From NCBI RefSeq assembly GCF_024112395.2, contig NZ_CP078013.2, forward strand, positions 5,208,001 through 5,272,000: DNA of 64,000 nt, written 5' to 3'. How positions within the stretch are numbered: the stretch's first letter is position 1; every line of letters starts with the position of its first letter. Below, piece after piece: positions 1 to 14,356 of the stretch. Both the position numbers and the translations under genes were made by a program. The notes under the pieces were generated by a model that saw nothing but the letters and a program-made list of their open reading frames with translations, did not search any database and was not told where the DNA came from. Origin of the DNA: Pseudomonas pergaminensis. GTDB taxonomy: Bacteria; Pseudomonadota; Gammaproteobacteria; Pseudomonadales; Pseudomonadaceae.

Positions 1-600
1 GTGCTGGTGGTGCATGACCTGGCCTATGCCGACATCGTCTACGACGGCTGGAAGGCCCCGTCGATCATGCAGGTGCCCGGTGCCAAGGACATCGCGGTGG
101 AGTTTTTCACCCTGTCCAAGAGCTACAACATGGCCGGCTGGCGCATCGGCTTCATGGTCGGCAACCCGGAACTGGTCAACGCCCTGGCGCGGATCAAGAG
201 CTACCACGACTACGGCACCTTCACCCCGCTGCAGGTGGCAGCCATTGCGGCGCTCGAAGGCGACCAGCAATGCGTGAAAGACATCGCCGAGCAGTACCGC
301 CAACGCCGCAATGTGCTGGTCAAGGGCCTGCATGAACTGGGCTGGATGGTGGAAAATCCGAAGGCGTCGATGTACGTCTGGGCGAAGATTCCCGAGCAGT
401 ATGCCGCCCTGGGTTCGCTGGAATTTGCCAAGAAGTTGCTGCTGGAGGCGAAGGTGTGTGTGTCGCCGGGCATCGGCTTTGGCGAGTATGGCGATGATCA
501 CGTGCGCTTTGCGCTGATCGAGAACCAGGACCGGATTCGCCAGGCGGTGCGCGGGATTCGCGGGATGTTCCGGGCGGATGGGCTGGTCACCAAAGCCTGA
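1..600 (+). CDS. alaC: Alanine-type PLP aminotransferase, 3' part (5' end outside the window)
   Basis: This is the C-terminal 199 residues of a fold-type I, class I/II aminotransferase; the reading frame is open at base 1, so the true start lies upstream. The PLP-binding lysine sits in [16 protein letters not shown] near residue 40, followed by the large-domain elements and the C-terminal domain with the substrate-binding arginine region ([10 protein letters not shown]). The closest family by recognition is the AlaC/YfdZ glutamate-pyruvate aminotransferase, which makes alanine from pyruvate with glutamate as amino donor in the cytosol. Related aspartate or methionine aminotransferases cannot be excluded from a fragment. 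A REP pair follows the stop codon, and the next gene is convergent. Confidence 0.75.
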
Positions 601-629
601 CGCAATCCACCTGTAGAAAGGTGATCAAA

Positions 630-721
630 AATGTGGGAGCTGGCTTGCCTGCGATAGCATCACCTCGGTGTATCTGCTACACCGAGGTGTCTGCATCGCA
701 GGCAAGCCAGCTCCCACATTT
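630..721. repeat. REP pair (REPIN), TGTGGGAGCTGGC type
   Basis: Two inverted REP arms (TGTGGGAGCTGGCTTGCCTG and its complement) flank a central hairpin, CACCTCGGTGTA/TACACCGAGGTG. The element lies between two convergent 3' ends, the usual position for this Pseudomonas repeat family. Confidence 0.9.
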
Positions 722-755
722 GATCGGGTTACCACATGGGTAACGGTGGTGCGGC

Positions 756-2108
756 TTAGACCACCAACGACAACAACATGATGAAGATCAGGGCCACGAT
801 AGACAGGATGGTTTCCATCGCCGTCCAGGTCTTGAACGTCTCGGCCACGGTCATGTTGAAGTACTGCTTCACCAGCCAGAACCCGGCATCGTTGACGTGA
901 GACAGGATCAACGAACCCGCCCCCGTCGCCAACACCAACAGCTCACGGTTAACCCCCGGAATCATCCCCACCACCGGCACCACGATGCCCGCGCCAGTAA
1001 TGGTGGCCACAGTGGCCGAACCGGTTGCCACACGAATCACCGCCGCCACCAGCCACGCCAGCAGGATCGGGTTGATCTGTGCATTCACCGCCATGTGGCC
1101 GATCACATCACCCACGCCGCTGGTCACCAGCATCTGCTTGAAGCCACCACCGGCACCGATGATCAGGATGATCGCAGCGGTCGGCGCCAGGCTGGCGTCG
1201 AGCAACTTGAGGATCTGCTTGGAATGGATGCCCTGGCGATGGCCAAAGGTGTACAGCGACAGCAGCAACGCCAGCAACAGCGCGGTGATCGGGTGACCGA
1301 TCATGTCCATCCAGTTGCGCACCACGTTGCCTTCGGCAAACGCGATGTCGGCGAAGGTTTTCAGCAGCATCAGGAACACCGGCAGCAGCACGGTGACCAG
1401 GGTGATGCCGAAGCTCGGCAGGTCTTTGTTCTCAGGTTCGCGGGCCAGTTGATCGACCAGTTCTTGGGACGGGTTGCCCGGGATGTACTTGGCGATGAAC
1501 GTACCGAAGATCGGGCCGGCGATGATGGCGGTCGGCAAAGCGACGATCAGGCCGTACAGGATGGTCTTGCCGATGTCGGCGCCAAACACGCCGATGGCCA
1601 GCAACGGGCCGGGGTGCGGTGGCACCAGGCCGTGTACCGCCGACAGGCCGGCCAGCAGCGGGATGCCGATCTTGATCAGCGACACACCCGTACGGCGCGC
1701 GACGATGAACACCAGCGGGATCAACAGCACAAAGCCGATCTCGAAGAACAGCGGGATGCCCACCAGGAACGCGGCGAACATCATGGCCCACTGGACCTTC
1801 TCTTTGCCAAAGGCGCGGATCAGGGTCTGGGCGATCTGGTCGGCACCGCCGGATTCGGCCATCATCTTGCCGAGCATCGTGCCCAGCGCAAGGATAATGC
1901 CGACAAAGCCGAGCACCCCGCCGAAACCGTCCTGGAACGCCTTGATGATCTTGTCCACGGGCATGCCCGAAGTCAGGCCGAGGAAGCCGGCCGCGATGAT
2001 CAGCGCAATGAACGGGTGCACCTTGAACTTGGTGATCAGAACGATCAACCCGATGATGGTAACGACTGCGTCAAGCAGTAGGTAGGACTCGTGGGACATG
2101 CCAAACAT
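756..2108 (-). CDS. gntP: Gluconate permease, GntP family
   Basis: A 450-residue, very hydrophobic protein with the layout of GntP-family gluconate:H+ symporters (inner membrane, about 12-14 helices). Typical family stretches are GLVPPHPGPLLAIGVFGADI and the C-terminal TITGAGIVVPV and SHVNDAGFW segments. The start at 2108 is favoured by GGAGAG seven bases upstream. It lies downstream of gntK on the same strand, with 84 bp between them that hold a GntR-like operator and an A/C-rich Hfq/Crc-type motif. It is therefore probably induced by gluconate through GntR and repressed by preferred carbon sources. Gluconate is the expected substrate because of gntK and gntR; other hexonates remain possible. 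Confidence 0.9.
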   Translation of the reverse strand: MFGMSHESYLLLDAVVTIIGLIVLITKFKVHPFIALIIAAGFLGLTSGMPVDKIIKAFQDGFGGVLGFVGIILALGTMLGKMMAESGGADQIAQTLIRAFGKEKVQWAMMFAAFLVGIPLFFEIGFVLLIPLVFIVARRTGVSLIKIGIPLLAGLSAVHGLVPPHPGPLLAIGVFGADIGKTILYGLIVALPTAIIAGPIFGTFIAKYIPGNPSQELVDQLAREPENKDLPSFGITLVTVLLPVFLMLLKTFADIAFAEGNVVRNWMDMIGHPITALLLALLLSLYTFGHRQGIHSKQILKLLDASLAPTAAIILIIGAGGGFKQMLVTSGVGDVIGHMAVNAQINPILLAWLVAAVIRVATGSATVATITGAGIVVPVVGMIPGVNRELLVLATGAGSLILSHVNDAGFWLVKQYFNMTVAETFKTWTAMETILSIVALIFIMLLSLVV

Positions 2109-2123
2109 GGGGGGTCTCTCCTG

Positions 2124-2138
2124 TTTGTTGTTGTTATT
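2124..2138 (-). promoter_or_regulatory. Hfq/Crc-type CA motif in gntP leader
   Basis: On the minus strand the leader reads AATAACAACAACAAACAGGA just before the Shine-Dalgarno. It contains overlapping AANAANAA matches, the motif bound by Hfq/Crc in pseudomonads for catabolite repression at translation. Confidence 0.6.
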
Positions 2139-2165
2139 AAAGCGGGTGTTGAATTTCCTGCCGGG

Positions 2166-2177
2166 GATAGCGCTATC
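2166..2177. promoter_or_regulatory. Candidate GntR operator upstream of gntP
   Basis: Perfect 12-bp palindrome GATAGCGCTATC. The same core recurs at 2745 and 2907. The minus strand reads AAAAGATAGCGCT, like the AAG-N-TAGCGCT core I recall for the Pseudomonas GntR site. Confidence 0.65.
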
Positions 2178-2192
2178 TTTTCCGGCAAAAAA

Positions 2193-2726
2193 TTATTTGG
2201 ATGGTTCAAAACCGTGTTGCAGCCACCAGGCGTTGGTCTGCTCGGCCAGTTCCTCGACGCTGTCATCACTGGCGTTGAGGGCCAGGGTCAGCGGCTCGCC
2301 CTTGGGCGATTCAAGGGTGGCGAACTGGCTGTCTATGAGGCTTGCCGGCATGAAATGGCCGGGGCGATGGGACACCCGGTCGGCAGCCACGGCGCGGGTC
2401 AGCTCCAGAAACACGAAACCCAGGCCCGGCGCAGCTTCGCGCAGGTGGTCGCGGTATTTCTTCTTGAGGGCTGAACAGGTCAGTACGGGGTGCTCGCCCG
2501 CTTTGAGCGAACGGCGCAGTTCATCGCACAGGATGTCGAGCCAGCCGGCGCGGTCGTCGTCGTTGAGGGGGTGTCCAGCGCTCATCTTTTCGATGTTGGC
2601 GGCGGGGTGAAAGCTGTCGCCTTCGATGGCAGTCGCACCGTTCAGACGGCACAGGGCCTCGCTGACGCTGGACTTGCCACAGCCGGAAACACCCATGATG
2701 ACCAGGGCGGTAACAGGTTGACTCAT
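2193..2726 (-). CDS. gntK: Gluconokinase
   Basis: A 177-residue P-loop kinase that phosphorylates gluconate to 6-phosphogluconate, feeding the Entner-Doudoroff pathway in the cytosol. The Walker A motif GVSGCGKSS is at residues 12-20. It is followed by EGDSFHPAANIEKMSAGHPL, the gluconate-binding segment typical of GntK, and by CSALKKKYRD and RPGHFMPASLIDSQFATLE. The start at 2726 (MSQPVTALV) gives the normal family length; a longer open frame to 2855 would run over the operator and adds no family sequence. The gene diverges from gntR, and an operator lies 19 bp upstream of its start codon, so direct repression by GntR is likely. Confidence 0.93.
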   Translation of the reverse strand: MSQPVTALVIMGVSGCGKSSVSEALCRLNGATAIEGDSFHPAANIEKMSAGHPLNDDDRAGWLDILCDELRRSLKAGEHPVLTCSALKKKYRDHLREAAPGLGFVFLELTRAVAADRVSHRPGHFMPASLIDSQFATLESPKGEPLTLALNASDDSVEELAEQTNAWWLQHGFEPSK

Positions 2727-2744
2727 GAAACACCTCAGGACGCA

Positions 2745-2756
2745 GATAGCGCTACC
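2745..2756. promoter_or_regulatory. Candidate GntR operator upstream of gntK
   Basis: GATAGCGCTACC, matching the gntP operator in 11 of 12 bases and placed 19 bp upstream of the gntK start, where a bound repressor would block transcription. Confidence 0.65.
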
Positions 2757-2906
2757 TTTGCACGCTGTAAGGCTAGTGCAAAAACAGGCTTTTCCCGCGC
2801 CGTCTTGTCTTTTTTTGGGAGTGACGCGTGCATCCTCTCCAAGCGGCTTACTCAAATTCAGACCGGATCAGGCAACCCGTTATTCAAGAATTTGCAGCCC
2901 TCTGGA

Positions 2907-2918
2907 GACAGCGCTACC
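2907..2918. promoter_or_regulatory. Candidate GntR operator upstream of gntR (autoregulation)
   Basis: GACAGCGCTACC. The minus strand reads ACTAAGGTAGCGCT, which fits AC-N-AAG-N-TAGCGCT exactly. It lies 35 bp before the gntR start codon and suggests autoregulation. Confidence 0.65.
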
Positions 2919-2952
2919 TTAGTGCCTCGATTTTTGTTTGGCAAGCTGCCTG

Positions 2953-3981
2953 ATGACCTCCAAGAACGATAAAAAATTGCGCACCACGGGTCGCCCGACC
3001 CTCAACGAAGTCGCCCGCCTGGCGGGCGTCAGCCCGATTACCGCCTCCCGGGCCCTGCGCGGTATCAGCACCGTCGCCACCGAACTGGTGGAAAAGGTGC
3101 AGCAGGCCGCCGCCGAACTGAACTACGTGGTCAACCCCGCCGCCCGCGCCCTGGCCTCGGCCCAGAGCCATTCGGTCGTGGTGTTGGTACCGTCGCTGTC
3201 CAACCTGCTGTTTATCGAAACCCTCGAAGCCATCCACCAGGTGCTGCGGCCCAAGGGCTTCGAAGTGCTGATCGGCAACTCCCACTATTCCCGTGACGAA
3301 GAAGAAAACCTGCTGCGCAACTACATGGCCTACCAGCCACGGGGGTTGTTGCTGACCGGGTTTGATCGCACCGAAAGCGCCCGACGGATGGTCGAGGCCA
3401 GCCATGTGCCTTGCGTGTACATGATGGATTTGGACCCGAACGCCGGCGTGAACTGCGTAGGGTTCTCGCAATTGGCGGCGGGCGAGACGGCGGCGGCGCA
3501 CCTGCTGTCCCGTGGGCGCAAGCGCCTGGCGTACATTGGCGCGCAGTTGGACCAACGCACGCTGCTGCGGGGTGAAGGTTTCCGCCGCGCACTGCAACAG
3601 GCCGGTATGTATGACCCGGCGCTGGAACTGCTGACACCGCGCCCCTCCTCCGTGGGCCTGGGTGGCGAGTTGTTCTTGCAGCTGCTGGCGGCGCATCCGG
3701 ACGTGGACGCGATCTTCTTCGGCAACGACGACTTGGCCCAGGGCGCGCTGCTAGAAGCCCTGCGCCATGGCATCAAAGTGCCGGAGCGTGTGGCGGTGCT
3801 GGGGTTCAACGACTTGCCGGCGTCGTCGTTCATGGTGCCGCGCCTGAGCAGCATCAGCACCCCGCGTGAAGCGATCGGCCGGCGTGCGGCGGAGCATTTG
3901 TTGACGATCATGGCGGGCAACAAGATCGCCAAGCCGGTGGTGGATATGGGGTTTGAGTTGCAGGTGCGGGAGAGCACATGA
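2953..3981 (+). CDS. gntR: LacI-family gluconate repressor GntR
   Basis: A 342-residue LacI/GalR-type regulator. The N-terminal helix-turn-helix is PTLNEVARLAGVSPITASRALRG (about residues 15-37), with the hinge at NPAARALASAQS. A periplasmic-binding-like sugar domain follows, with LVPSLSNLLF, FFGNDDLAQGALLEA and GFNDLPASSFMVPRLSS. Gluconate or 6-phosphogluconate is the expected inducer. It diverges from gntK and gntP, with three palindromic operators between or beside them. The start at 2953 is the first ATG and leaves a normal N-terminus. Oddity: the last 15 codons (from 3934) recur downstream three times as part of a tandem array, so this C-terminal end may have been replaced by a recombination event; the encoded ending VREST is preserved in each copy. 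Confidence 0.9.
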   Translation: MTSKNDKKLRTTGRPTLNEVARLAGVSPITASRALRGISTVATELVEKVQQAAAELNYVVNPAARALASAQSHSVVVLVPSLSNLLFIETLEAIHQVLRPKGFEVLIGNSHYSRDEEENLLRNYMAYQPRGLLLTGFDRTESARRMVEASHVPCVYMMDLDPNAGVNCVGFSQLAAGETAAAHLLSRGRKRLAYIGAQLDQRTLLRGEGFRRALQQAGMYDPALELLTPRPSSVGLGGELFLQLLAAHPDVDAIFFGNDDLAQGALLEALRHGIKVPERVAVLGFNDLPASSFMVPRLSSISTPREAIGRRAAEHLLTIMAGNKIAKPVVDMGFELQVREST

Positions 3982-4065
3982 GCGTCTAGCCGGCCATAAT
4001 TTTGGAGAATTGAACGTGCTCTGATAGGCAAGGCCATGGACAACACACCCCGCGCCACTGACACA

Positions 4066-4109
4066 AAAATTGCACCTGGAAAGGCGTGCCCTCTGAGGTG
4101 CAAATTTTT
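4066..4109 (+). terminator. Possible terminator after gntR, repeated in each unit
   Basis: TTGCACCT (4070-4077) pairs with AGGTGCAA (4096-4103) across an 18-nt loop, followed by a T run. Units 2 and 3 keep the stem, but their T run is interrupted by C, so function there is doubtful. Confidence 0.5.
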
Positions 4110-4161
4110 CTGTTTAACGCTTCAAAAAAACTTTTAGCCTAGCCACTACCCCACAATAAAA

Positions 4162-4181
4162 TACTGTCAACTATGACAGTA
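4162..4181. promoter_or_regulatory. 20-bp palindrome in leader of unit 1
   Basis: TACTGTCAACTATGACAGTA, two perfect 8-bp arms around ACTA, 92 bp upstream of the start codon. It is identical in all three units and is a candidate operator. Confidence 0.55.
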
Positions 4182-4273
4182 GACAATGCCTCACTTACGA
4201 CGCGTAATAAGGACGACAGTTTAGTTAACCTATAAAACTGTGAGCACTTTAAACAAACAAAGGAGTTTCACTC

Positions 4274-4693
4274 ATGAAGTTTTATACAGGCAAAGAAGAC
4301 GCCCCCTTTTCAGAAGGGAATTTCAACATAACAAAATCGCCAGACGGTCCATTTATCACCGACCAAGTCAGAATGGATAAAGACAACAGATACCTCCATG
4401 TCTCAGGTTACAAAATACTTGACAGTGGTGAACGCGCAAGAGTATCTCTAACCTTTCTTAATAAAGAAGGAACATTCACGGGCAACTTCGGCAACCCTGA
4501 TCTACCACCATGGGGTTCCTACAATGTAGGCAACTGGGGGTACCTGGTTCGGCAAGGAGAAACAACACACACCTACCTCGAAAAGCCTGAACATGCAACC
4601 GGCAAATTTCGTTTCATCGTAAGGATCGACGGTACAGATGTTGAGTGTGAAGGCGATTTCAACGTACAAAAGCATGCAGATCCCTACCCCTAA
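4274..4693 (+). CDS. Unknown 139-residue protein, array copy 1
   Basis: Family not recognised. The protein is hydrophilic, has no signal peptide or membrane segment, and alternates short beta-like strands, suggesting a compact beta fold. It aligns without gaps to the other two copies: by hand count 99 of 139 residues match copy 3 and 86 match copy 2. Constant blocks are NITKSP-GPFI (residues 18-28), SGERA-VSL and EGTF-GNFG (51-73), PWG (79-81), TTHTYL-KPEHATGKF (97-112) and ECEG (124-127). Variable blocks lie at 2-16, 34-49, 82-95 and 113-123. AAAGGAG lies eight bases before the ATG and should give strong translation. A single cysteine is conserved. The gene is probably horizontally acquired, judging by its AT-rich composition beside gntR. 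Confidence 0.85.
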   Translation: MKFYTGKEDAPFSEGNFNITKSPDGPFITDQVRMDKDNRYLHVSGYKILDSGERARVSLTFLNKEGTFTGNFGNPDLPPWGSYNVGNWGYLVRQGETTHTYLEKPEHATGKFRFIVRIDGTDVECEGDFNVQKHADPYP

Positions 4694-4723
4694 TTCGTTT
4701 CCTTTTACAACTCACTGCTTTTT

Positions 4724-4752
4724 CCGGCTCTATATTAGAAAGTTAGAGCCGG
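4724..4752 (+). terminator. Hairpin after array gene 1
   Basis: CCGGCTCTA pairs with TAGAGCCGG over an 11-nt loop, 30 bases after the stop codon. No clear T tract follows, so it may stabilise the mRNA end rather than terminate. Confidence 0.4.
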
Positions 4753-5152
4753 ACCCTCTTCAGAGAGGCGTTAGCCCTCGCCCAGCAACCTCAGGTTCTC
4801 GCGAACCAAGAACAGTTTCAGTATCGTCGAATCAGCTGAAGGTAAAGTTAGCTGCTAAACCATAAGTTTGTTCACCCCCCCTATTGACACAATGGGCATA
4901 AACTCTCGCAAACCGTAAATCCGGTGGTGGATATGGGGTTTGAGTTGCAGGTGCGGGAGAGCACATGAGCGTCTAGCCGACGACCATAATTTTGAAGAGT
5001 TGAACGTGCTCTGATAGGCAAGGCCGTGGACAACACACCCCGCGCCACTGACACAAAAATTGCACCTTGAAAGGCGTGGCCTCTGAGGTGCAAATTCTTC
5101 TGTTTAACGCTTCAAAAAAACTTTTAGCCTAGCCATTACCCCACAATAAAAA

Positions 5153-5172
5153 TACTGTCAACTATGACAGTA
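5153..5172. promoter_or_regulatory. 20-bp palindrome in leader of unit 2
   Basis: Exact copy of TACTGTCAACTATGACAGTA, 93 bp upstream of array gene 2. Confidence 0.55.
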
Positions 5173-5265
5173 GACAACGCATCACTTACGACGCGTAATA
5201 AGGACGACAGTTTTAGTTAAACTATAAAACCGTGAGCACTTTAAACAAACAAAGGAGTTTCACTC

Positions 5266-5685
5266 ATGAAGCTTTATACAAGTAACGAAAACAACTTCTT
5301 TTCAAAAGGGAGTTTCAACATAACAAAATCGCCAAACGGTCCATTTATCGCCGACCACGTCAGAATTTATACAGACCTCGGATATCTCGCTGTCACAGGG
5401 GACACAATACTTGACAGAGGTGAACGCGCAGGAGTAAGTCTATACTTTCTTGCTATAGAAGGAACATTCATGGGCAACTTTGGCGGCCCTGATGTAACAC
5501 CATGGGGTTACTACGATATAGTTAACTGGTCGCACTCTGCTCTGCGCGGAAAAACAACACACACCTATCTCAACAAGCCTGAACATGCAACTGGCAAATT
5601 TAGTTTCATCATAAGTATCAGCGGTACAGAACATGAGTGTGAAGGCGAATTCAACGTACAAAGGCTTATGAATCCCGTCCCCTAA
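5266..5685 (+). CDS. Unknown 139-residue protein, array copy 2 (most diverged)
   Basis: Second array gene, same length and start context (AAAGGAGTTTCACTC before ATG) as copy 1. It keeps the constant blocks FNITKSP-GPFI, GERA-VSL, EGTF-GNFG, PWGYY, TTHTYL-KPEHATGKF and ECEGEFN, but differs in nearly all variable blocks; for example FLAIEG replaces FLNKEG and NWSHSALRGK replaces NWGYLVRQGE. Against copy 1, 53 codons change the amino acid and only about six differ silently (hand count). No frameshift or stop is present, so it looks functional. Family and function are unknown. Its position in the array argues for divergence after duplication or for exchange of the coding core between strains. Confidence 0.85.
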   Translation: MKLYTSNENNFFSKGSFNITKSPNGPFIADHVRIYTDLGYLAVTGDTILDRGERAGVSLYFLAIEGTFMGNFGGPDVTPWGYYDIVNWSHSALRGKTTHTYLNKPEHATGKFSFIISISGTEHECEGEFNVQRLMNPVP

Positions 5686-5713
5686 TTCACTCCCTTTTAC
5701 AACTCACTGCTTT

Positions 5714-5742
5714 CCGGCTCTATATTAGAAAGTTAGAGCCGG
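5714..5742 (+). terminator. Hairpin after array gene 2
   Basis: Same CCGGCTCTA/TAGAGCCGG hairpin as after gene 1, with no clear T tract. Confidence 0.4.
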
Positions 5743-6142
5743 ACCCTCTTCAGAGAGGCGTTAGCCCTCGCCCAGCAACCTCAGGATCTCGCGAACCAAG
5801 AACAGTTTCAGTATCGTCGAATCAGCTGAAGGTAAAGTTAGCTGCTAAACCATAAGTTTGTTCATACCCCCCCTATTGACACAATGGGCATAAAACTCTC
5901 GCAAACCGTAAATCCGGTGGTGGATATGGGGTTTGAGTTGCAGGTGCGGGAGAGCACATGAGCGTCTAGCCGGCCATAATTTTGGAGAATTGAACGTGCT
6001 CTGATAGGCAAGGCCATGGACAACACAACCCGCGCCACTGACACAAAAATTGCACCTGGAAAGGCGTGACCTCTGAGGTGCAAATTCTTCTGTTTAACGC
6101 TTCAAAAAAACTTTTAGCATAGCCATTACCCCACAATAAAAA

Positions 6143-6162
6143 TACTGTCAACTATGACAGTA
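6143..6162. promoter_or_regulatory. 20-bp palindrome in leader of unit 3
   Basis: Exact copy of TACTGTCAACTATGACAGTA, 93 bp upstream of array gene 3. A second inverted repeat, ACAGTTTTA/TAAAACTGT, lies at 6197-6223, nearer the start codon. Confidence 0.55.
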
Positions 6163-6255
6163 GACAATGCCTCACTTACGACGCCTAATAAGGACGACAG
6201 TTTTAGTTAAACTATAAAACTGTGAGCACTTTAAACAAACAACGGAGTTTCACTC

Positions 6256-6675
6256 ATGATTTTTCATAAAGACAACGAAGACGGCCCCTTTTCAACAGGG
6301 AGTATCAACGTAACAAAATCGCCAATCGGCCCATTTATCGCCGACCAAGTCAGAATGTATAACGAGAGAAGATATCTCTCTATCTCAGGTTACAAAGTAC
6401 TTGACAGTGGTGAACGCGCAAGAGTATCTCTAACCTTTCTTAATGAAGAAGGAACATTCACGGGCAACTTCGGCAACCCTGATCTACCGCCATGGGGTTA
6501 CTACGGACTAGGCGACTGGTCCTGGACTGCTCTGCGCGGAGAAACAACACACACCTACCTAGAAAAGCCTGAACATGTAACCGGCAAATTTAGTTTCATC
6601 GCAAGGATCCACGGTGCAGATGCTGAATGTGAAGGCGAATTCAACATACAACAGCATTCAGATCCCTACCCCTAA
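6256..6675 (+). CDS. Unknown 139-residue protein, array copy 3
   Basis: Third array gene. It matches copy 1 at 99 of 139 positions; 40 codons differ in amino acid and only five differ silently (codons 25, 40, 78, 102 and 124), while the leaders of the same two units differ by about 3 percent. That pattern points to selection for amino-acid change rather than drift. The central scaffold, from SGERARVSLTFLN to NPDLPPWG, is almost identical to copy 1. The N-terminus (IFHKDNEDG), the region GLGDWSWTALRG and the C-terminal loops are distinct. The Shine-Dalgarno is ACGGAG instead of AAGGAG. It is cytoplasmic by lack of a signal sequence. Function unknown. Confidence 0.85.
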   Translation: MIFHKDNEDGPFSTGSINVTKSPIGPFIADQVRMYNERRYLSISGYKVLDSGERARVSLTFLNEEGTFTGNFGNPDLPPWGYYGLGDWSWTALRGETTHTYLEKPEHVTGKFSFIARIHGADAECEGEFNIQQHSDPYP

Positions 6676-6703
6676 TTCACTCCCTTTTACAACTCACTGC
6701 TTT

Positions 6704-6731
6704 CCGGCTCTATATTATAAGTTAGAGCCGG
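6704..6731 (+). terminator. Hairpin after array gene 3
   Basis: CCGGCTCTA/TAGAGCCGG again, with a one-base shorter loop. Confidence 0.4.
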
Positions 6732-7033
6732 ACCCTCTTCAGAGAGGCGTTAGCCCTCGCCCAGCAACCTCAGGATCTCGCGAACCAAGAATAGTTTCAG
6801 TATCGTCGAATCAGCTGAAGGTAAAGTTAGCTGCTAAACCATAAGTTTGTTCATCCCCACTATTGACACAATGGGCATAAAACTCTCGCAAACCGTAAAG
6901 CCGGTAGTGGACATAGGGTTTGAGTTGCAGGTGCGGGAGAGCACGTAGGACGCCTGTAGGGCGCGACTGACATTGCGGTAAGCGCCTTGCCCGTTTGCCT
7001 ACGCTTACGTCAGAATCCGCCGGCTTGTGCGCC

Positions 7034-7116
7034 GAGGTGGGGGGGCTCTAAGGTTTGCCGGTCGCTGAATGTCTCGGTGATCGGGTTTAGTAGCCCACTT
7101 TTGGACCTCCTAAACC
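7034..7116 (+). ncRNA. C4-like structured leader or antisense RNA
   Basis: The leader resembles phage P1/P7 C4 and P4 CI-type RNAs by recognition. GGGCTCTAA (7044-7052) can pair with TTAGTAGCCC (7088-7095) with one mismatch; an inner CCGGTC/GATCGG stem encloses GCTGAATGTCTCGGT; and GAGGT (7034-7038) can pair with ACCTC (7105-7109). GGTTTAG (7084-7090) is also the exact complement of CTAAACC (7110-7116), which sits directly against the AGGAG ribosome site of the next gene. This is the layout expected of a self-derived antisense switch. The structure was not computed. Confidence 0.5.
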
Positions 7117-7128
7117 AGGAGCACTGCT

Positions 7129-7368
7129 TTGATCAAACAAATCGAAAATCCGCCAAGCACGCTGTTCACCGTCATCCCCGATATCCCGATCGAAACCCTG
7201 CTGATCAATAGCTACGAAACCGTGTGTTCCGTCAGTACCCTGTTGCTCGACCTGTCCGACGACCTCACCGGCAAGCAACGCGATGTCGCGCTGGCCATTC
7301 ACCAACTCAGTGAGCTGAGCGTGCTGTTGGTGGGCAAGGCGATGGACCAGCACACGCCACGCTGTTAA
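7129..7368 (+). CDS. DUF6124/DUF3077-like small protein
   Basis: A 79-residue protein with TTG start; AGGAG lies seven bases upstream and no ATG or GTG gives a better fit. Its core, TLFTVIPDIPIETLLINSYETVCSV, matches my memory of the Pseudomonas-restricted DUF6124 family, which begins TMFVVNPDVDTETLLANAYE. The rest is helical, with ALAIHQLSELSVLLVGKAMD. The copy is shorter than usual because the N-terminal tail is missing. Function is unknown for the family. It follows a C4-like leader that could sequester its ribosome site, and lies just beyond the triplicated array. The compact size and repeat-rich surroundings suggest an accessory gene. Confidence 0.7.
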   Translation: MIKQIENPPSTLFTVIPDIPIETLLINSYETVCSVSTLLLDLSDDLTGKQRDVALAIHQLSELSVLLVGKAMDQHTPRC

Positions 7369-7386
7369 GGCCCTACTCGGTCAAAA

Positions 7387-7475
7387 TGTGGGAGCGGGCT
7401 TGCTCGCGAATGAGGTCTGTCAGCACCAAATAAGCTGGCTGGTCTACCGCATTCGCGAGCAAGCCCGCTCCCACA
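7387..7475. repeat. REP pair, TGTGGGAGCGGGC type
   Basis: Inverted REP arms, each carrying GGAGCGGGCTTGCTCGCGAAT, enclose a central stem-loop region. It lies between the DUF6124-like gene and a glutathione S-transferase gene. Confidence 0.9.
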
Positions 7476-7558
7476 GTTTTTACTGTGCCCACTTGGAAAT
7501 ATCGCCGTAGCCTCCTGCCCCTGCTAGATTGGCTGCTCTCCACCGCCAGGGAAGCACC

Positions 7559-8191
7559 ATGGGACACTCACTGAAAATCTTGGGCCGCACGTCCTCTATC
7601 AACGTGCGCAAAGTACTCTGGACCTGCCAGGCACTGGGCATCGACTACCAGCGCGAAGACTGGGGCATCGGCTTCAAGCCCACCCAGTCCGCCGAATTCC
7701 TGGCCTTGAACCCCAACGCCCAGATCCCCGTGCTGATTGACGACCACGGCGTGCTGTGGGAGTCCAACACCATTTGTCGCTACCTCGTAAACCTGTACCA
7801 GCGTCATGACCTGCTGCCCGCCGAGCCGGCACCCCGTGCCCGGGTCGAGCAATGGATTGACTGGCAAGCCATCGAACTCAACCGCGCCTGGGGCGACGCC
7901 TTCACCGCCCTTGTGCGCAACAACCCGGACGGCCTGGACGCAACGCAGATTGCCGCCGCCGTGCAGCGCTGGAATGACAGCATGGGCATTCTCGAACAAC
8001 AGCTGGCAAAGACAGGTGCCTACGTGGCCGGCGACGAATTCACCCTCGCCGATATCCTTATCGGCCTCTCGGTGCACCGCTGGCAGATGACGCCCATGGA
8101 GCGCCCGCCCTACCCCGCCGTTGCGGCGTACTATCAACGCCTCGGCCAACACGCCGGGTTCAAGACCTTCGCCCTCGACGGCCATCACTAA
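7559..8191 (+). CDS. Glutathione S-transferase family protein
   Basis: A 210-residue GST with an N-terminal thioredoxin-like domain (LKILGRTSSINVRKVLWTCQALG, then NPNAQIPVLIDDHGVLWESNTICRYL with the cis-Pro and the glutathione-binding ES pair) and an all-helical C-terminal domain containing DEFTLADI. The catalytic site probably uses Ser in RTSSINV. It should conjugate or reduce substrates with glutathione in the cytosol; the substrate is unknown. The ATG at 7559 with AGGGAAG upstream is preferred over a longer frame to 7529. The next gene starts 15 bp downstream, so the two are likely co-transcribed with an SDR oxidoreductase and possibly an MFS carrier. Confidence 0.9.
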   Translation: MGHSLKILGRTSSINVRKVLWTCQALGIDYQREDWGIGFKPTQSAEFLALNPNAQIPVLIDDHGVLWESNTICRYLVNLYQRHDLLPAEPAPRARVEQWIDWQAIELNRAWGDAFTALVRNNPDGLDATQIAAAVQRWNDSMGILEQQLAKTGAYVAGDEFTLADILIGLSVHRWQMTPMERPPYPAVAAYYQRLGQHAGFKTFALDGHH

Positions 8192-8206
8192 CCACAAGGG
8201 CTACAC

Positions 8207-8944
8207 GTGAAAGGACTCAACGTACTGCTCACCGGCGCCTGCGGCAGAATCGGCAAGACGTTTTTCGAGGCCTCGCAAGACCGCTACCGCTTCACCCTCA
8301 CCGACCGCGTCACGCCGGACTTCGACCTGGGCGAGCACCGCTTCGTCCACGCCGACCTCAGCGATCGATCCAGCCTGGCGGCATTGCTCGAAGGCATCGA
8401 CGTGATCGTGCACCTGTCGGGCATCCCCCACGCCAGCGCGTCATTCGAAGAACTGCTGCCCAACAACATCCTCGCCACCACCTACCTGTTCGAAGCTGCC
8501 GTGGCCGCTGGCGTGAAACGCCTGGTGTTCGCCAGCAGCGCGCAAACTATCGAAGGGTACCCGGTGGACCGCCAAATCACGCCTGGCATGCCCGTGATGC
8601 CCGCCAACCTGTATGGCGTGAGCAAATGCTACGGCGAGGCGCTGTGCGGCTACTACGCGGCAAAAACGCTGTTGTCGACCATTGCCCTGCGTATCGGCGC
8701 CTTCGAATTCCGCGAAACCCACGACCTCAACAACGCCCGCGACCTCAGCGCCTGGCTCAGCCCGCGTGATGCGGTGCAGTTGCTGCAACGCTCGGTAGAA
8801 GCCGAGGGCGTCAAGCACCTGATCGCCCATGGCATTTCCAACAACCGCTTCAAACGCCTGGACCTCAGCGAAACCACGCGGGTGCTGGGCTACCAACCGG
8901 TGGACGACGCATTCCAGACGTTCGACATACCCATCACCTTCTGA
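8207..8944 (+). CDS. NAD-dependent epimerase/dehydratase-family oxidoreductase, uronate-dehydrogenase-like
   Basis: A 245-residue extended-type SDR with GTG start. The Rossmann nucleotide motif is LLTGACGRIGK (residues 7-17), the NAD-binding segment is VHLSGIPH, and the active site has SS (FASSAQTIEGY) and YGVSK (Tyr and Lys three residues apart). The order ASS...LYGVSKCYGEALCGYYA closely follows bacterial uronate dehydrogenases, which oxidise galacturonate or glucuronate to the aldarolactone, but this protein may use another sugar acid. It sits 15 bp after a GST gene and is followed by a sugar- or acid-type MFS transporter, which fits a small uptake and oxidation unit. No regulator is adjacent. 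Confidence 0.8.
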   Translation: MKGLNVLLTGACGRIGKTFFEASQDRYRFTLTDRVTPDFDLGEHRFVHADLSDRSSLAALLEGIDVIVHLSGIPHASASFEELLPNNILATTYLFEAAVAAGVKRLVFASSAQTIEGYPVDRQITPGMPVMPANLYGVSKCYGEALCGYYAAKTLLSTIALRIGAFEFRETHDLNNARDLSAWLSPRDAVQLLQRSVEAEGVKHLIAHGISNNRFKRLDLSETTRVLGYQPVDDAFQTFDIPITF

Positions 8945-9082
8945 GCGCGCGCCATAAAACCCTGAAACATAACGCCGGCGCGCAATAAATCAGCGAATCG
9001 GCGTGTCAACGGGCGCAACTTCACACGCGCAGATTTCCGTTAGCACGCTAAGATTCCAGGTCACTGCCACTGGAATACGCCC

Positions 9083-10498
9083 ATGTCCACACTCAACGCC
9101 CGCGCCACCGACGGCATCGACCCCCTCCGCGCCGCCCACATCAGCGCGCGCATCGACCGCCTGCCAGCCGTCGCCACTGTGTGGCGTCTGGTGGCGCTGC
9201 TGTCGATAGGCGGTTTTTTCGAGCTGTATGACCTGTTCCAAACCGCCTACATCAGCCCCGGCCTGATCAGCGACGGGATTTTCCACACCGGCAGCCAGGG
9301 CGTGTTTGGCTTCTCGGACCAGGCCGCCTTTGCCTCGGCGACCTTCCTGGGGCTGTTCCTCGGCGCCAGCCTGCTCAGCCCCATCGCCGACCGCTTCGGG
9401 CGCCGGGCGATCTTCACCTTTGCGTTGATCTGGTACACCGTCGCCACCGTGTTAATGGGCATCCAGACCTCGGCGCTGGGCATCATTTGCATGCGCTTTT
9501 TGGTGGGCATCGGGCTGGGTATCGAACTGGTAACCATCGACGCCTACCTCTCGGAACTGGTGCCCAAGCGCATGCGCAGTTCGGCGTTTGCCTTCGCATT
9601 TTTTATCCAGTTTTTGTCGGTGCCGGCGGTGGCATTGATGTCGTGGTGGCTGGTGCCCCAGGCGCCGTTCGGCGTGTCAGGCTGGCGCTGGGTAGTGCTG
9701 AGCAGTGCGGTATTTGCGCTGTTTATCTGGCAACTGCGCAAGCGCCTGCCGGAATCCCCGCGCTGGCTGGCGCAGAAAGGCCGCTTTGAGGAAGCCGGCA
9801 CGATCATGGACAACCTGGAGGCGCGCTGCCAGAAAGATCACGGCAAACCGCTGGATGAGCCCGAGCCCGAAGCCGTCAGCGTGCAGGGCAGCGGCCGCTT
9901 TGCCGATATCTGGCAACCACCGTACCGCCGCCGCGCGTTGATGCTCATCGTGTTCCATGTGTTCCAGGCCATCGGCTTCTTTGGCTTCGGCAACTGGTTG
10001 CCCGCGTTGCTGTCAGGCCAAGGCGTGAGCGTGACCCACAGTTTGCTCTACGCCTTTATCATCACCCTCGCCTACCCCTTGGGGCCGCTGCTGTTCGTGA
10101 AGGTGGCCAACCGCTTTGAAAACAAATGGCAGATCGTCGGTTCGGCCCTGGGCGCGATGATCTTCGGCAGCCTGTTCGCCCTGCAAACCACGGCGGTGGG
10201 GCTGGTAATTTGTGGCGTGATGATCACCTTCTGCAATGCCTGGCTGAGCTTCAGCTATCACTCGTACCAGAGCGAACTGTTCCCCACCAACATCCGGGCG
10301 CGGGCGGTGGGCTTCTGCTACTCGTTCAGCCGCTTGTCCACGGTGTTCAGCAGCCTGCTGATCGGCTTTATCCTCGAACACCTGGGCACGCCGGGCGTGT
10401 TGGCGTTCATTGCCAGCAGCATGCTGATCGTGATGATCACCATCAGTTGGTTCGGGCCGCGTACGCGAAACCTGGCGTTGGAAAATATCGCCCATTGA
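9083..10498 (+). CDS. MFS transporter, sugar/organic acid type
   Basis: A 471-residue inner-membrane carrier with about 12 helices. TM1 starts near residue 30 (LVALLSIGGFFELYDLFQTAY). The A-loop signature DRFGRRAIFTFAL lies between TM2 and TM3, and RFLVGIGLGIELVTIDAYLSELVPKRMRS covers TM4 and the loop typical of the sugar-porter and metabolite:H+ symporter families. A hydrophilic central loop spans about residues 230-275. The gene lies 138 bp after the uronate-dehydrogenase-like gene on the same strand, suggesting uptake of an acidic substrate, but substrate specificity cannot be read from the sequence. Confidence 0.88.
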   Translation: MSTLNARATDGIDPLRAAHISARIDRLPAVATVWRLVALLSIGGFFELYDLFQTAYISPGLISDGIFHTGSQGVFGFSDQAAFASATFLGLFLGASLLSPIADRFGRRAIFTFALIWYTVATVLMGIQTSALGIICMRFLVGIGLGIELVTIDAYLSELVPKRMRSSAFAFAFFIQFLSVPAVALMSWWLVPQAPFGVSGWRWVVLSSAVFALFIWQLRKRLPESPRWLAQKGRFEEAGTIMDNLEARCQKDHGKPLDEPEPEAVSVQGSGRFADIWQPPYRRRALMLIVFHVFQAIGFFGFGNWLPALLSGQGVSVTHSLLYAFIITLAYPLGPLLFVKVANRFENKWQIVGSALGAMIFGSLFALQTTAVGLVICGVMITFCNAWLSFSYHSYQSELFPTNIRARAVGFCYSFSRLSTVFSSLLIGFILEHLGTPGVLAFIASSMLIVMITISWFGPRTRNLALENIAH

Positions 10499-10630
10499 CG
10501 GCAACGGTTGGCCGCCGGCGGGACAACACTTGCCGCGTCGGCCACCGCCCCCCAGTAAAACCGGGCACTTCACACCCGGCACACTATTTGCTCCACCTGT
10601 GGCACCGAACATTTCCCCAGGTGACCGATC

Positions 10631-11128
10631 ATGCTGGTTAACAACAACACCCAAGCCGTTTCGACTGTTCAACAGATCAAGCGACCCGACATGGATCCCG
10701 CCAACGCCGCCGCCAGCGCGCTGTACAGCGGTGCCCTGCAAGCCGCGCAGCAAAGCGTGACCGTGCCCGCCGCGCAGAAGGAACTGGACAAGGCCGCCGA
10801 CCGCATCGACGAAGCCTTTGCCAAGACCCGCGTGCAGCTGCAGACCAGCGCGTCGACCAGCGATGTGCCGGCGACCAGCGCCGCTTCCGGTGCACGCTCG
10901 GAGTTCACCGACTATATGAGCAAATCCCCGGCCGAGCGCATCCGTGACCAACTGCTCAAGGAGCAGGGTTTGACCGAGGCGGATTTGCAGAACATGTCGA
11001 AGGAAAAGCAGGATGCCTTCTCCAAGCAAGTGGCCGAGCGCTTGAAGCAACAGCAAGAACAGCAGGTAGCCGCCAAAACTGCTGACCCGCAGGCCCAGAC
11101 AGTCAAAGAAACCCTGGCCGCAATCTAA
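10631..11128 (+). CDS. Conserved hypothetical protein, Ala/Gln-rich
   Basis: A 165-residue, soluble, low-complexity protein with no signal peptide or membrane segment. The N-terminal 100 residues are rich in Ala, Ser and Thr. The C-terminal 60 (FTDYMSKSPAERIRDQLLKEQGLTEADLQNMSKEKQDAF) form a predicted helical domain, followed by a Lys/Gln-rich helix (ERLKQQQEQQ). No family was recognised beyond similarity to hypothetical proteins common in Pseudomonas. It stands alone between an MFS gene and a REP element. The gap before it (10499-10630) holds only a weak CCGGG/CCCGG hairpin. Confidence 0.75.
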   Translation: MLVNNNTQAVSTVQQIKRPDMDPANAAASALYSGALQAAQQSVTVPAAQKELDKAADRIDEAFAKTRVQLQTSASTSDVPATSAASGARSEFTDYMSKSPAERIRDQLLKEQGLTEADLQNMSKEKQDAFSKQVAERLKQQQEQQVAAKTADPQAQTVKETLAAI

Positions 11129-11143
11129 CAGCCCCCAAGTCAC

Positions 11144-11210
11144 TGTAGGAGCCGGCTTGCCGGCGATAGCGTTCTCAAGATCGCCATCGCCGGCAAGCCG
11201 GCTCCTACAG
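11144..11210. repeat. REP pair, TGTAGGAGCCGGC type
   Basis: Short inverted pair (TGTAGGAGCCGGCTTGCCGG and complement) between convergent genes. Confidence 0.9.
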
Positions 11211-11218
11211 GGTTTGGG

Positions 11219-12538
11219 TTATTGCAGTTGTAACGTCGAGTTGAACTGACCGATCGCATCCACTACGTGCCGTGACCCCTCCTGAATTTCCAGGATCACC
11301 TGCCCCGCTTCATTCGCCAATTCCACCCCCAGCCCCGTGCGGCTTAGGCTCGACTGCATGCTCGACACCGCGCTCAGCGACAGGTCGTGGTTTTTGCGCA
11401 CCACATCGACAATTTCCACCGTCGCCTGGCTCGTCCGTGCGGCGAGGCTGCGCACCTCGTCTGCCACCACTGCAAAACCGCGCCCGTGTTCGCCCGCCCG
11501 CGCCGCTTCAATCGCGGCGTTGAGCGCGAGCATATTGGTCTGCTCGGCGATGCTGCGGATGGTCTGCACGATGGCGCCAATGATGTCCGATTGCTTGCTG
11601 ACTGCGTCGATACTCACGGCGGCCTGGTTCAGGTCGTGGGAAATTTCTTCGATGATCTGCACGGTTTGCTGCACCACCTCCGACCCCTTGCGGGCGCAGG
11701 CGTCGTTTTGTACCGAGGTGGCATGGGCCGAGTCGGCGGCGTTACGCAGGGTGGTGACCTGGTCGGTGATGTCGCTGGCAAACTTCACCACTTTGTACAG
11801 GCGGCCATTGGTGTCGAAGATCGGGTTGTAGGAGGCTTCCAGGAACAGGGTCTTGCCGTATTTGTTTTTGCGCTCGAAGCGGTGCGAGTGGTATTCGCCA
11901 CGATTGAGCGACGCCCAGAACGCCTTGTAGGCCGGTGATTCCACTTCATTGCGGTGGCAGAACATGCTGTGGTGCTGGCCGACGATTTCATCCAAGGAAT
12001 ACTGCACGGTCTTCAGGAAGTTTTCGTTGGCGTTGATGATCTGGCCCTGCGGGGTGAACTCGATCACTGCCATGGAGCGGCCAATGGCATCGATCAGGCT
12101 CTGGTTTTCATGTTCGTGGTGGACCCGCGCCGTGATGTCCGACGCGACTTTGATCACGCTCTGCACGTGATTGTCTTTGTCCAGCACCGGCATGTAGCTG
12201 GCTTCCAGCCAGACTTCCTGGCCATGCTTGTTCAAGCGCATGAAGGTGCCACTGAGCGCCTGGCCTCGCGCCAGGTCGCGCCATAGCTTGGCGTAGGCAT
12301 CGGTGTGGGTGTAGGGCTCGTCGCAAAAGAGGCGGTGATGTTTACCGCGTATTTCCTCGACGCTATAGCCCATGGTTTTGCAGAAGTTGTCGTTGGCGTC
12401 GAGGATCACGCCACTGGGGTCGAACTCGATCATGGCCATGGAACGGCTGATAGCGGCGAGTTTGGCGTTGGATTCGGTGAGTGCGCAGGAAAAACGTTCG
12501 ATTTGTTGCAGGTCGGATTTGTGATGGCGGTTGAACAT
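11219..12538 (-). CDS. PAS-PAS methyl-accepting chemoreceptor, BdlA-like
   Basis: A 439-residue soluble chemoreceptor with two PAS domains (about residues 22-140 and 145-265) and an MCP signalling domain. Each PAS repeats [22 protein letters not shown] and a NENFLKT-type core. The signalling hairpin tip includes [47 protein letters not shown], given here only to place it near residues 355-400. No transmembrane segment is present. The architecture matches P. aeruginosa BdlA, which controls biofilm dispersion, and Aer-2-like receptors. The start at 12538 (MFNRHHKSD) gives family length; an upstream open frame adds non-family residues. It is monocistronic. Sensing of redox, oxygen or an intracellular ligand is an inference. 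Confidence 0.85.
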
Positions 12539-12705
12539 GGTCAGATCACCCTTGATTCCCGGCGCCCGTAAGGCGCATTCCATTCTTTTGTTGGCTATTG
12601 CTGGCACACCTTCATGGGGAAATAACCATCCAAATCGCTTTATATGCCAAGCGTCATCAACGGTTCCGGGTGAGCATAGACAGGGCTTGGCGCTATGCAA
12701 GGCCA

Positions 12706-13575
12706 CTAGTCAGCCAGCATTTTTAACAATGCGAGGGCCGCGGCTGACAGCGGGCGATCCGACGAGCCGACCAAGGCAAATTCGCGGTGCAGCGGCACAT
12801 CCAACGCCATCACGCGCAGGCCCTTGCGCTGGGACGGCAAGGCCATTTCCGGCACCAGTGTGACGCCGACGCCCTCACGCACCAGGCTGAAGGCACTGTT
12901 CCATTCACGCACCTCAACGCGTACATCGCGCAGGGTCAGCCCGGCGGCGGCGCCCAGGCTGCGGGCATTAGCGGTACAGCCACCAGTAGCCAGCACGAAA
13001 GGCTGCTCAAGCAATTCCTCAAGCGACACCGTGGCATCGGCGGGGCGTTGCGCCAGCGCGTGCTCCACTGGCAGCACGGCCATCCACAAGTCACGGCCCA
13101 ACACCGTCGCATTGCGCTCGGGCGTGGGGTTGAGCACCACGCCCAAGTCGATAAGGCCGGTGTCGAGCAGGGTGAGCACTTCGTTGTCAGTGACATCCAA
13201 GGTGGTGACGTCGATACCGGGATAGAGCTGCGCAAAACGCTGCAATGCGGGTGTCAGAAAGGTCGCCAGCACCATGGGGAAACTGGCGATGCGAATCGTC
13301 CCACGCAACATGGGCCTGGCTTCGTCCACGGTGCTACGAATCGCCTGCAACGCCCCAAGCATGACTCGCGCCTGCTCGATCACACTCAAGCCCAGGGCAG
13401 TGGGCAAGGTCTTGCGCGGTTCGCGGGTAAACAGCTGCGCCCCCAGCGTCGCTTCCATACCGGCCATGGCCTGGCTGGCGGCGGATTGGGTCATGCCCAC
13501 GCGCTCGGCGGCGGCGGTGATGCTGCCGTGATCGGCCACGGCCACCAGCAAGCGCCAGTGCATCAGGTTCATCAT
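12706..13575 (-). CDS. LysR-family transcriptional regulator
   Basis: A 289-residue LTTR. The winged helix-turn-helix is [36 protein letters not shown], read across residues 5-40, and a periplasmic-binding-like effector domain follows. It diverges from the glutathione S-transferase gene at 13672 with a 96-bp shared intergenic region, the standard LTTR arrangement, so it probably controls that gene and itself. AAGGA lies 11 bases before the ATG at 13575; an ATG three bases later is an alternative. The effector is unknown. Confidence 0.9.
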
Positions 13576-13671
13576 GGCAGTAGCTGTCCTTATGGCAGGG
13601 GTCTGAACGTTTAATTTTACGCACGGTGCCACGCCCGCGAGACTGGCGCAAATTCAACGGAGCTGCCCCAG

Positions 13672-14274
13672 ATGAAACTGTATTTCTTCCCCCACGCCTG
13701 TTCTCTCGCACCGCATATCGTGCTGCGCGAATTGGCGCTGCCGTTCGACCTGGTCTTGGTAAATAACCAAGCCAAGACCACCGCCGACGGCGAAGACTTC
13801 CTGCAGATCAACCCCAAGGACTACGTCGCGGCGCTGAAACTGGACAACGGCCAGGTGCTGACCGAAGCCAGCGCGATCCTGCAATACCTGGCCGACCTGA
13901 AACCCGCCGCAGGCCTGGCACCGGCTAATGGCAGCTGGGAACGCGTGCGCCTGCAGGAGTGGCTGAACTTCGTTGCCACCGAGATTCATGGCGGCTTGGC
14001 GGTGTTCTTCAACGGCGCGATCCAGGGCGAGGTGAAAGCGGCATTCCAGGCCACGCTGTTCAAGCGTTTCACGGTGCTGGTGCAGACGCTGGAGCGCCAG
14101 GATTACCTGTTGGGTGCGCAGTACTCGGTGGCAGATGCCTACCTGTTTGTGGTGCTGCGCTGGGCGGCGTTTCACGCGATTGATTTGGATAAGTGGCCGG
14201 CGCTGGCGGCGTTTCAGCAGCGGGTGGGTGAGCGGCAGGCGGTGATTGCGGCATTGGCCGCCGAGAATCCATAA
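13672..14274 (+). CDS. gstA: Glutathione S-transferase, beta-class GstA type
   Basis: A 200-residue GST. The N-terminus MKLYFFPHACSLAPHIVLRE carries Cys10 and the SLAPHI signature of bacterial beta-class enzymes, and NPKDYVAALKLDNGQVLTEASAILQYLADL gives the glutathione site with the cis-Pro position replaced as usual in this class (YVAAL). The helical domain includes LGAQYSVADAYLFVVLRWA. Beta-class enzymes use the N-terminal Cys to form a mixed disulfide with glutathione and protect against oxidants and electrophiles. It is divergent from a LysR gene that probably regulates it. Confidence 0.88.
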   Translation: MKLYFFPHACSLAPHIVLRELALPFDLVLVNNQAKTTADGEDFLQINPKDYVAALKLDNGQVLTEASAILQYLADLKPAAGLAPANGSWERVRLQEWLNFVATEIHGGLAVFFNGAIQGEVKAAFQATLFKRFTVLVQTLERQDYLLGAQYSVADAYLFVVLRWAAFHAIDLDKWPALAAFQQRVGERQAVIAALAAENP

Positions 14275-14289
14275 GGCAAACGCAGCCCC

Positions 14290-14356
14290 TGTAGGAGCCG
14301 GCTTGCCGGCAATGGCGTCCTCACGGGCCCTATCGCCGGCAAGCCGGCTCCTACAG
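14290..14356. repeat. REP pair, TGTAGGAGCCGGC type, supplying a stop codon
   Basis: Inverted arms TGTAGGAGCCGGCTTGCCGG. The right arm overlaps the last codons of the leftward ammonia-lyase-like gene; its TAG stop (14351-14353) is part of the repeat. Confidence 0.9.

Follow-up and report, generated by a model that had tools for sequence, protein, structure and literature searches.

The window analysed here is a stretch of 64,000 nucleotides from the genome of Pseudomonas pergaminensis (contig NZ_CP078013.2, positions 5,208,001 to 5,272,000), and the element under study is an array of three direct-repeat units at window positions 3934–6944. Each unit is about 990 bp long and carries a single gene of 139 codons, as a sequence-only reading had described, and the repeat and frame coordinates bear this out. 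The genes start 992 bp and then 990 bp apart, all three are intact frames of exactly 139 codons, and the open-reading-frame list holds no further frame longer than 76 amino acids in the units. The array lies in a cluster of gntR, a DUF6124 gene, gst, a dehydrogenase gene and a transporter gene, and its boundaries are formed by copies, about 47 bp long, of the gntR 3' end, a feature that the sequence-only reading had missed. This gene end forms a repeat family (D5) that recurs at every unit boundary. The features of the locus are as follows.

2938–3981, plus strand: gntR, a LacI-type regulator (NCBIfam NF052440, HTH-type regulator GntR, 533 bits against a cut-off of 400)
3934–3981, plus strand: gntR 3'-end copy 1, the gene's present end (repeat comparison)
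4070–4109, no strand: terminator-like inverted repeat with a T run after it, in the unit 1 leader (sequence reading; core 4086–4101)
4162–4181, no strand: palindrome TACTGTCA-N4-TGACAGTA, putative operator of copy 1
4274–4693, plus strand: copy 1, 139 codons
4921–4968, plus strand: gntR 3'-end copy 2, the boundary of units 1 and 2
4997–5054, plus strand: 3'-end remnant of a DUF6124 gene within the unit 2 leader, with equivalents in units 1 and 3
5153–5172, no strand: palindrome of copy 2
5266–5685, plus strand: copy 2, 139 codons
5914–5961, plus strand: gntR 3'-end copy 3, the boundary of units 2 and 3
6143–6162, no strand: palindrome of copy 3
6256–6675, plus strand: copy 3, 139 codons
6900–6948, plus strand: displaced original gntR 3' end, the right boundary of the insertion
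7129–7368, plus strand: resident DUF6124 gene (PF19619, E 1.1e-26)
7559–8191, plus strand: glutathione S-transferase gene (gst), the right neighbour (PF02798, E 3.3e-15)

Each unit is a self-contained cassette: its leader holds the palindrome, a single gene encodes a small all-beta protein, and there are repeats that resemble terminators. The three genes differ from one another far more than the DNA around them. Copies 1 and 3 differ at 58 of 417 bases (40 replacement and 5 silent codons), copies 1 and 2 at 79 bases (53 and 6), and copies 2 and 3 at 89 bases (54 and 9); the codon counts reported earlier for the first two pairs, and the 58 bases for copies 1 and 3, were exact on recount. For the pairs 1–3, 1–2 and 2–3, the 298-nt leaders showed 8, 12 and 13 mismatches with 4, 10 and 6 gap columns, respectively. 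Divergence was 13.8–21.2% in the genes, 2.4–3.8% in the 5' flanks and 1.8–4.0% in the 3' flanks, which confirms the earlier claim that the coding regions had diverged far beyond their flanks.

We then compared replacement (dN) and silent (dS) divergence by the Nei-Gojobori method. The dN/dS ratio was 0.174/0.087 = 2.0 for copies 1 and 3, 0.251/0.111 = 2.27 for copies 1 and 2, and 0.273/0.177 = 1.54 for copies 2 and 3, which places it above 1 in all pairs and clearly so in two. In the same order, the share of codon bootstraps with dN at or below dS was 0.016, 0.0016 and 0.0496, the bootstrap 95% range of the ratio was 1.05–5.04, 1.22–5.3 and 0.93–2.93, and simulation of neutral change at a kappa of 2 gave p values of 0.009, 0.001 and 0.015. 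The excess of dN over dS is firm for copies 1–2 and 1–3 and borderline for copies 2–3.

The silent sites of the genes are themselves more diverged than the flanks. They differ by 8–16% compared with 2.8–3.2% for the pooled flanks, that is 2.7–5 times more (Fisher p 0.016 for 1–3, 0.0037 for 1–2 and 2e-5 for 2–3). Because a fresh duplication followed by selection alone would leave silent sites near the flank level, unless the flanks are constrained, exchange of older alleles between the frames has most likely acted besides selection, and the swapping of diverged cores into conserved frames is probably needed too. The sequence-only reading had offered diversifying selection or exchange of a coding core as alternatives; both gain support, the one from dN/dS and the other from the silent sites. 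Copies 2 and 3 also share a short, converted-looking tract (codons 91–94, six variable sites, p 0.0017 uncorrected for three pairs), and one metagenome protein reads as a chimera of copy 3 and copy 1, both of which point toward allele exchange. A tract shared by copies 1 and 3 was not significant (p 0.096).

The AlphaFold2 model of copy 1 is all-beta and confident (predicted local distance difference test score, pLDDT, 88.0; predicted template modelling score, pTM, 0.82), and from this model the protein is probably a small beta-barrel. Positions that vary among the three copies make up 25 of 39 in pole B of the model, 12 of 31 in the middle and 15 of 51 in pole A. Residue entropy over seven sequences, a set that omits the near-duplicates or chimera P0001, P0002 and P0004, was likewise clustered by pole (reached in 0 of 10,000 permutations and 1 of 120 circular shifts). 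Mapping the variable residues on a predicted fold, as had been suggested earlier, thus gave an all-beta model with these residues gathered at one inferred pole, which fits a binding surface. The small barrels of surface proteins (LpqH, the TbpB barrel, NHBA and fHbp) and the lipocalins are among the closest known systems. A Foldseek search gave no structure match with E below 0.001, nor did any viral structure reach that level, and a sequence-profile search of the PDB returned four chance-level matches (best E 0.19). Inspection of the N-terminus by eye revealed no signal peptide.

The earlier reading called the family of the genes unknown, and the three copies had no match in Pfam, NCBIfam or PHROGs at E up to 1. 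Close family members are few, with 7 database proteins found from copy 1 alone (two marked as the window's own kind) and 18 from a profile search, the named ones being Pseudomonas hypotheticals. With its own genome included in each count, copy 1 was matched in 3 of 398 genomes of the genus and the profile in 11 of 293 relatives' genomes; six weak matches among these 11 (E 0.005–0.04) were set aside, one in the genus (G049) and five outside it (G485, G409, G464, G462 and G425). Scans of genome contigs and viral contigs gave no confirmed relative. The distant relatives are 18–32% identical to copy 1, and the gntR of the four clusters holding one is 93–99% identical. These four (in G059, G121, G338 and G349) occupy different slots of the same gntR-to-transporter cluster, and no cluster gene was found within 11 kb around the relatives in G016 and G005. 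The cluster of G349 also contains two decayed-looking relatives (L022 3887–4299 and 5376–5807) with an in-frame stop or no usable start. In G016, a stretch resembling DUF6124/DUF3077 by eye (L017 4620–4870) stands just before the family member, outside a gntR cluster.

Six genomes carry a second set of genes, here called slot genes, which sit after DUF6124 or in the interval from gntR to gst. These genes are related to the array family by profile (hhalign probability 94.7, E 6.3e-8), and the model of one of them has a strand order like that of copy 1. Five of the six slot genes of other species match DUF6252 (PF19765; best E 4e-7), although one, L077, scored 22.9 bits, below the curated cut-off of 27.2 bits. 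By contrast, the three window copies have no match to DUF6252 at E up to 1 and only one of 18 family members matches it, at 0.031, so that any remote kinship of the array family with DUF6252 would be indirect, by way of the slot genes. The word DUF6252 was not met in the literature searched. The amino acids of the slot genes change far faster than those of gntR; between G121 and G320, dN was 0.13 for the slot gene against 0.003 for gntR, with gst, a variable gene itself, at 0.12. At silent sites the same two genomes differ less in the slot gene (dS 0.138) than in gntR (0.220) or gst (0.351), which again suggests exchange.

The direct repeats of the gntR end start at 3934, 4921, 5914 and 6900, on both sides of the array. 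Window positions 6898–7096 align in one piece to the gntR end and intergenic DNA of G004 (89%) and G031 (87%), and no copy of the array gene was found after gntR in either genome. The insertion has therefore moved the original gntR end to 6900, and the gene now terminates in the first tail copy. Directly after the gntR tail the units read TGAGCG, like G235 and G349, whereas G004 and G031 have TAGGA there. Every leader holds a remnant resembling the 3' end of a DUF6124 gene; that of unit 2 matches G237 C2:72465-72524 (78%, E 2.4e-4), a stretch that, by coordinates, overlaps the end of that genome's DUF6124 gene (L058 1875–2105). We infer that the unit derived from the same kind of cluster, its gene standing after DUF6124 as the slot genes do in G308 and G168. 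The DUF6124 gene at 7129–7368 has counterparts downstream of gntR in relatives that range from 37 to 90% identity, or is not found there. An inverted repeat at 7387–7476, which we take to be REP-like (repetitive extragenic palindromic), has matches near gntR in other genomes.

The 20-bp palindrome TACTGTCAACTATGACAGTA lies 92–93 bp before the start codon in all three copies and had also escaped the sequence-only reading. The form ACTGTCA-N4-TGACAGT was present upstream of all six relatives read (G005, G016, G059, G121, G338 and G349), exactly in four and with one mismatch in two. There are 7 exact copies in this genome and up to 16 in relatives. Of 71 genomes of the genus, 43 had the palindrome, against none of 44 others, and a reversed-pattern control matched nowhere in the genus and once outside it (G399). 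Within 1.5 kb after gntR, it was found with at most one mismatch in 7 of 34 gntR-end loci, 81–86 bp before a gene of 137–146 amino acids in six and before a decayed gene in the seventh; 29 loci (L055–L083) are best matches rather than a random draw, with two candidates scored per genome. When up to one mismatch was allowed, 85 distinct sites were collected, and at 61 of them a well-placed reading frame begins 30–153 bp downstream. Of these frames, 53 are 66–180 codons long, although the simple start-site score by which frames were chosen must have picked some of them wrongly. Among 20 proteins from palindrome sites and relatives, one exceeded a Pfam cut-off (SET domain). The palindrome thus looks like a genus-wide site before many short genes, a putative regulon (loci including L084–L096 and L126–L165).

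The boxes bound by LuxR-type regulators, such as those of the las and rhl systems, are CT-N12-AG dyads. CTGTCA-N4-TGACAG fits this dyad, which stands upstream of all three copies and all six relatives (two with one mismatch in the longer palindrome), in genomes that hold LuxR-type proteins. A PF03472 match was found in 40 of 40 genus genomes with the palindrome and 11 of 25 without it (G000–G064; Fisher 7e-8); the genome of the window holds two PF03472 regulator genes. The palindrome is, judging from these patterns, most likely read by a LuxR-type regulator. We considered LfsT of P. aeruginosa as the reader and rejected it, its reported motif having the different form AACN(0-9)GTT (PMC9769523). 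None of the titles and abstract openings searched for the motif concerned this site, and the passages seen of a paper on LuxR solos held no such site (PMC8546723). An RNA hairpin or terminator was also rejected; the minus-strand T run of the window copies is absent at G059, and in the common variant CCTGTCA-N4-TGACAGT the outer pair is lost with no compensating change, so we favour a DNA site.

The explanation we favour, and to which we give roughly an even chance, is that the array encodes a recognition protein that keeps diversifying, that belongs to a putative LuxR-type regulon and that is renewed as cassettes are inserted and exchanged. The first unit would have come from a related cluster, carrying a foreign gntR 3' end and part of DUF6124 with it; it would have entered the resident gntR end by recombination and later undergone duplication. 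The copies would exchange blocks, and selection would favour new residues at one pole of a barrel that binds a changing partner, candidates being a molecule of a rival or phage, a toxin or a surface partner. If a LuxR-type regulator reads the palindrome, expression would respond to cell density or to signals from plants. Since no signal peptide was seen by eye, we assume that the protein acts inside the cell or leaves it by a non-classical route.

Several points weigh against this explanation. The ratio for copies 2 and 3 is only borderline, and conservation of the leaders for their function may likewise depress flank divergence. A dN/dS above 1 was not found among the slot genes of other species; the three closest slot-gene pairs gave 0.86 (G121 and G320), 0.27 and 0.28, and the six of 15 pairs that escaped saturated (infinite) dS ranged from 0.27 to 0.86. 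The chimera, seen in a single metagenome contig of 1107 bp, could be an artefact of assembly. Assignment of the poles used the strand order of the model alone, without coordinates, and the PDB matches are weak. The LuxR association is an association only, confounded by relatedness and genome size. Lastly, a Pfam scan of 12 neighbouring genes (window 1–14,300) recognised no toxin or receptor partner, one gene being without a family.

It is possible, though unlikely, that the copies form an orphan immunity array protecting against diverse contact-delivered or diffusible toxins of rivals, where more copies would cover more toxins. Tandem arrays of orphan immunity or antigen genes likewise consist of diverged paralogues with conserved flanks, and one variable face, a short protein with no visible signal peptide, a presence scattered among species, and decayed copies in G349, as in birth-and-death families, would all suit such a role. 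Unlike those arrays, however, this one has no toxin or secretion gene recognised among the 12 neighbours, where polymorphic-toxin immunity genes would have an adjacent toxin gene, and the same palindrome precedes genes of other kinds too. The PADLOC defence models gave no match for copy 1 and one weak match among 18 family members (E 0.026), and no family member seen carries an immunity or antigen name.

We think it less probable still that the genes are drifting or decaying, as a silenced, AT-rich foreign gene free of constraint whose old alleles are shuffled with no diversifying selection. The GC content of the array genes (44–46% versus 60% for the window), the decayed relatives in G349 and slot-gene ratios not above 1 agree with this, as does dS above flank divergence, which suggests import of old alleles. 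However, drift predicts a dN/dS of 1 and not the 1.5–2.3 observed (p 0.001–0.015 against neutral simulation), and it sits poorly with three intact frames of exactly 139 codons and variable residues clustered at one pole.

A site-specific mobile cassette, with the gntR 3' end as attachment site, a recombinase acting in trans, and serial insertion instead of duplication, appears about as improbable as drift. Islands that enter gene 3' ends leave a duplicated end with the original on the far side, and here the gene end is duplicated at each boundary and the original displaced in this way. Yet no recombinase was found in the units or among the 12 neighbours, a second gntR end was seen in 0 of 36 loci of other genomes (2.6–11 kb), and 47 bp of homology may suffice for ordinary recombination. 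Least probable is a lipocalin-like binder of a small ligand whose pole residues retune its specificity, for example to a plant sugar acid or signal; several of the top weak Foldseek matches are lipocalins (best E 0.041, TM score 0.33) and the neighbours include a GntP permease, an Epimerase-family protein and a sugar transporter, but none of the Foldseek matches is better than the threshold given above, no cluster gene was found in the 11 kb around the G016 and G005 relatives, and small ligands would rarely drive dN/dS above 1.

Faster change in the amino acids than at silent sites and in the flanks is a sign of an arms race or a recognition system. With a confident predicted fold, a variable face and a common palindrome, a direct search for the partner and for the regulator becomes feasible. 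Should the palindrome prove to be a lux box, it would tie unexplained short Pseudomonas genes to cell-density or plant signalling. More tentatively, and with considerable doubt on our part, the genus as a whole may hold a LuxR-type-controlled repertoire of short, rapidly diversifying beta proteins for recognition of strains or attackers, with the gntR cluster as a hotspot of cassette insertion, amplification and shuffling. If so, the array in the window would be a locus caught making new specificities.

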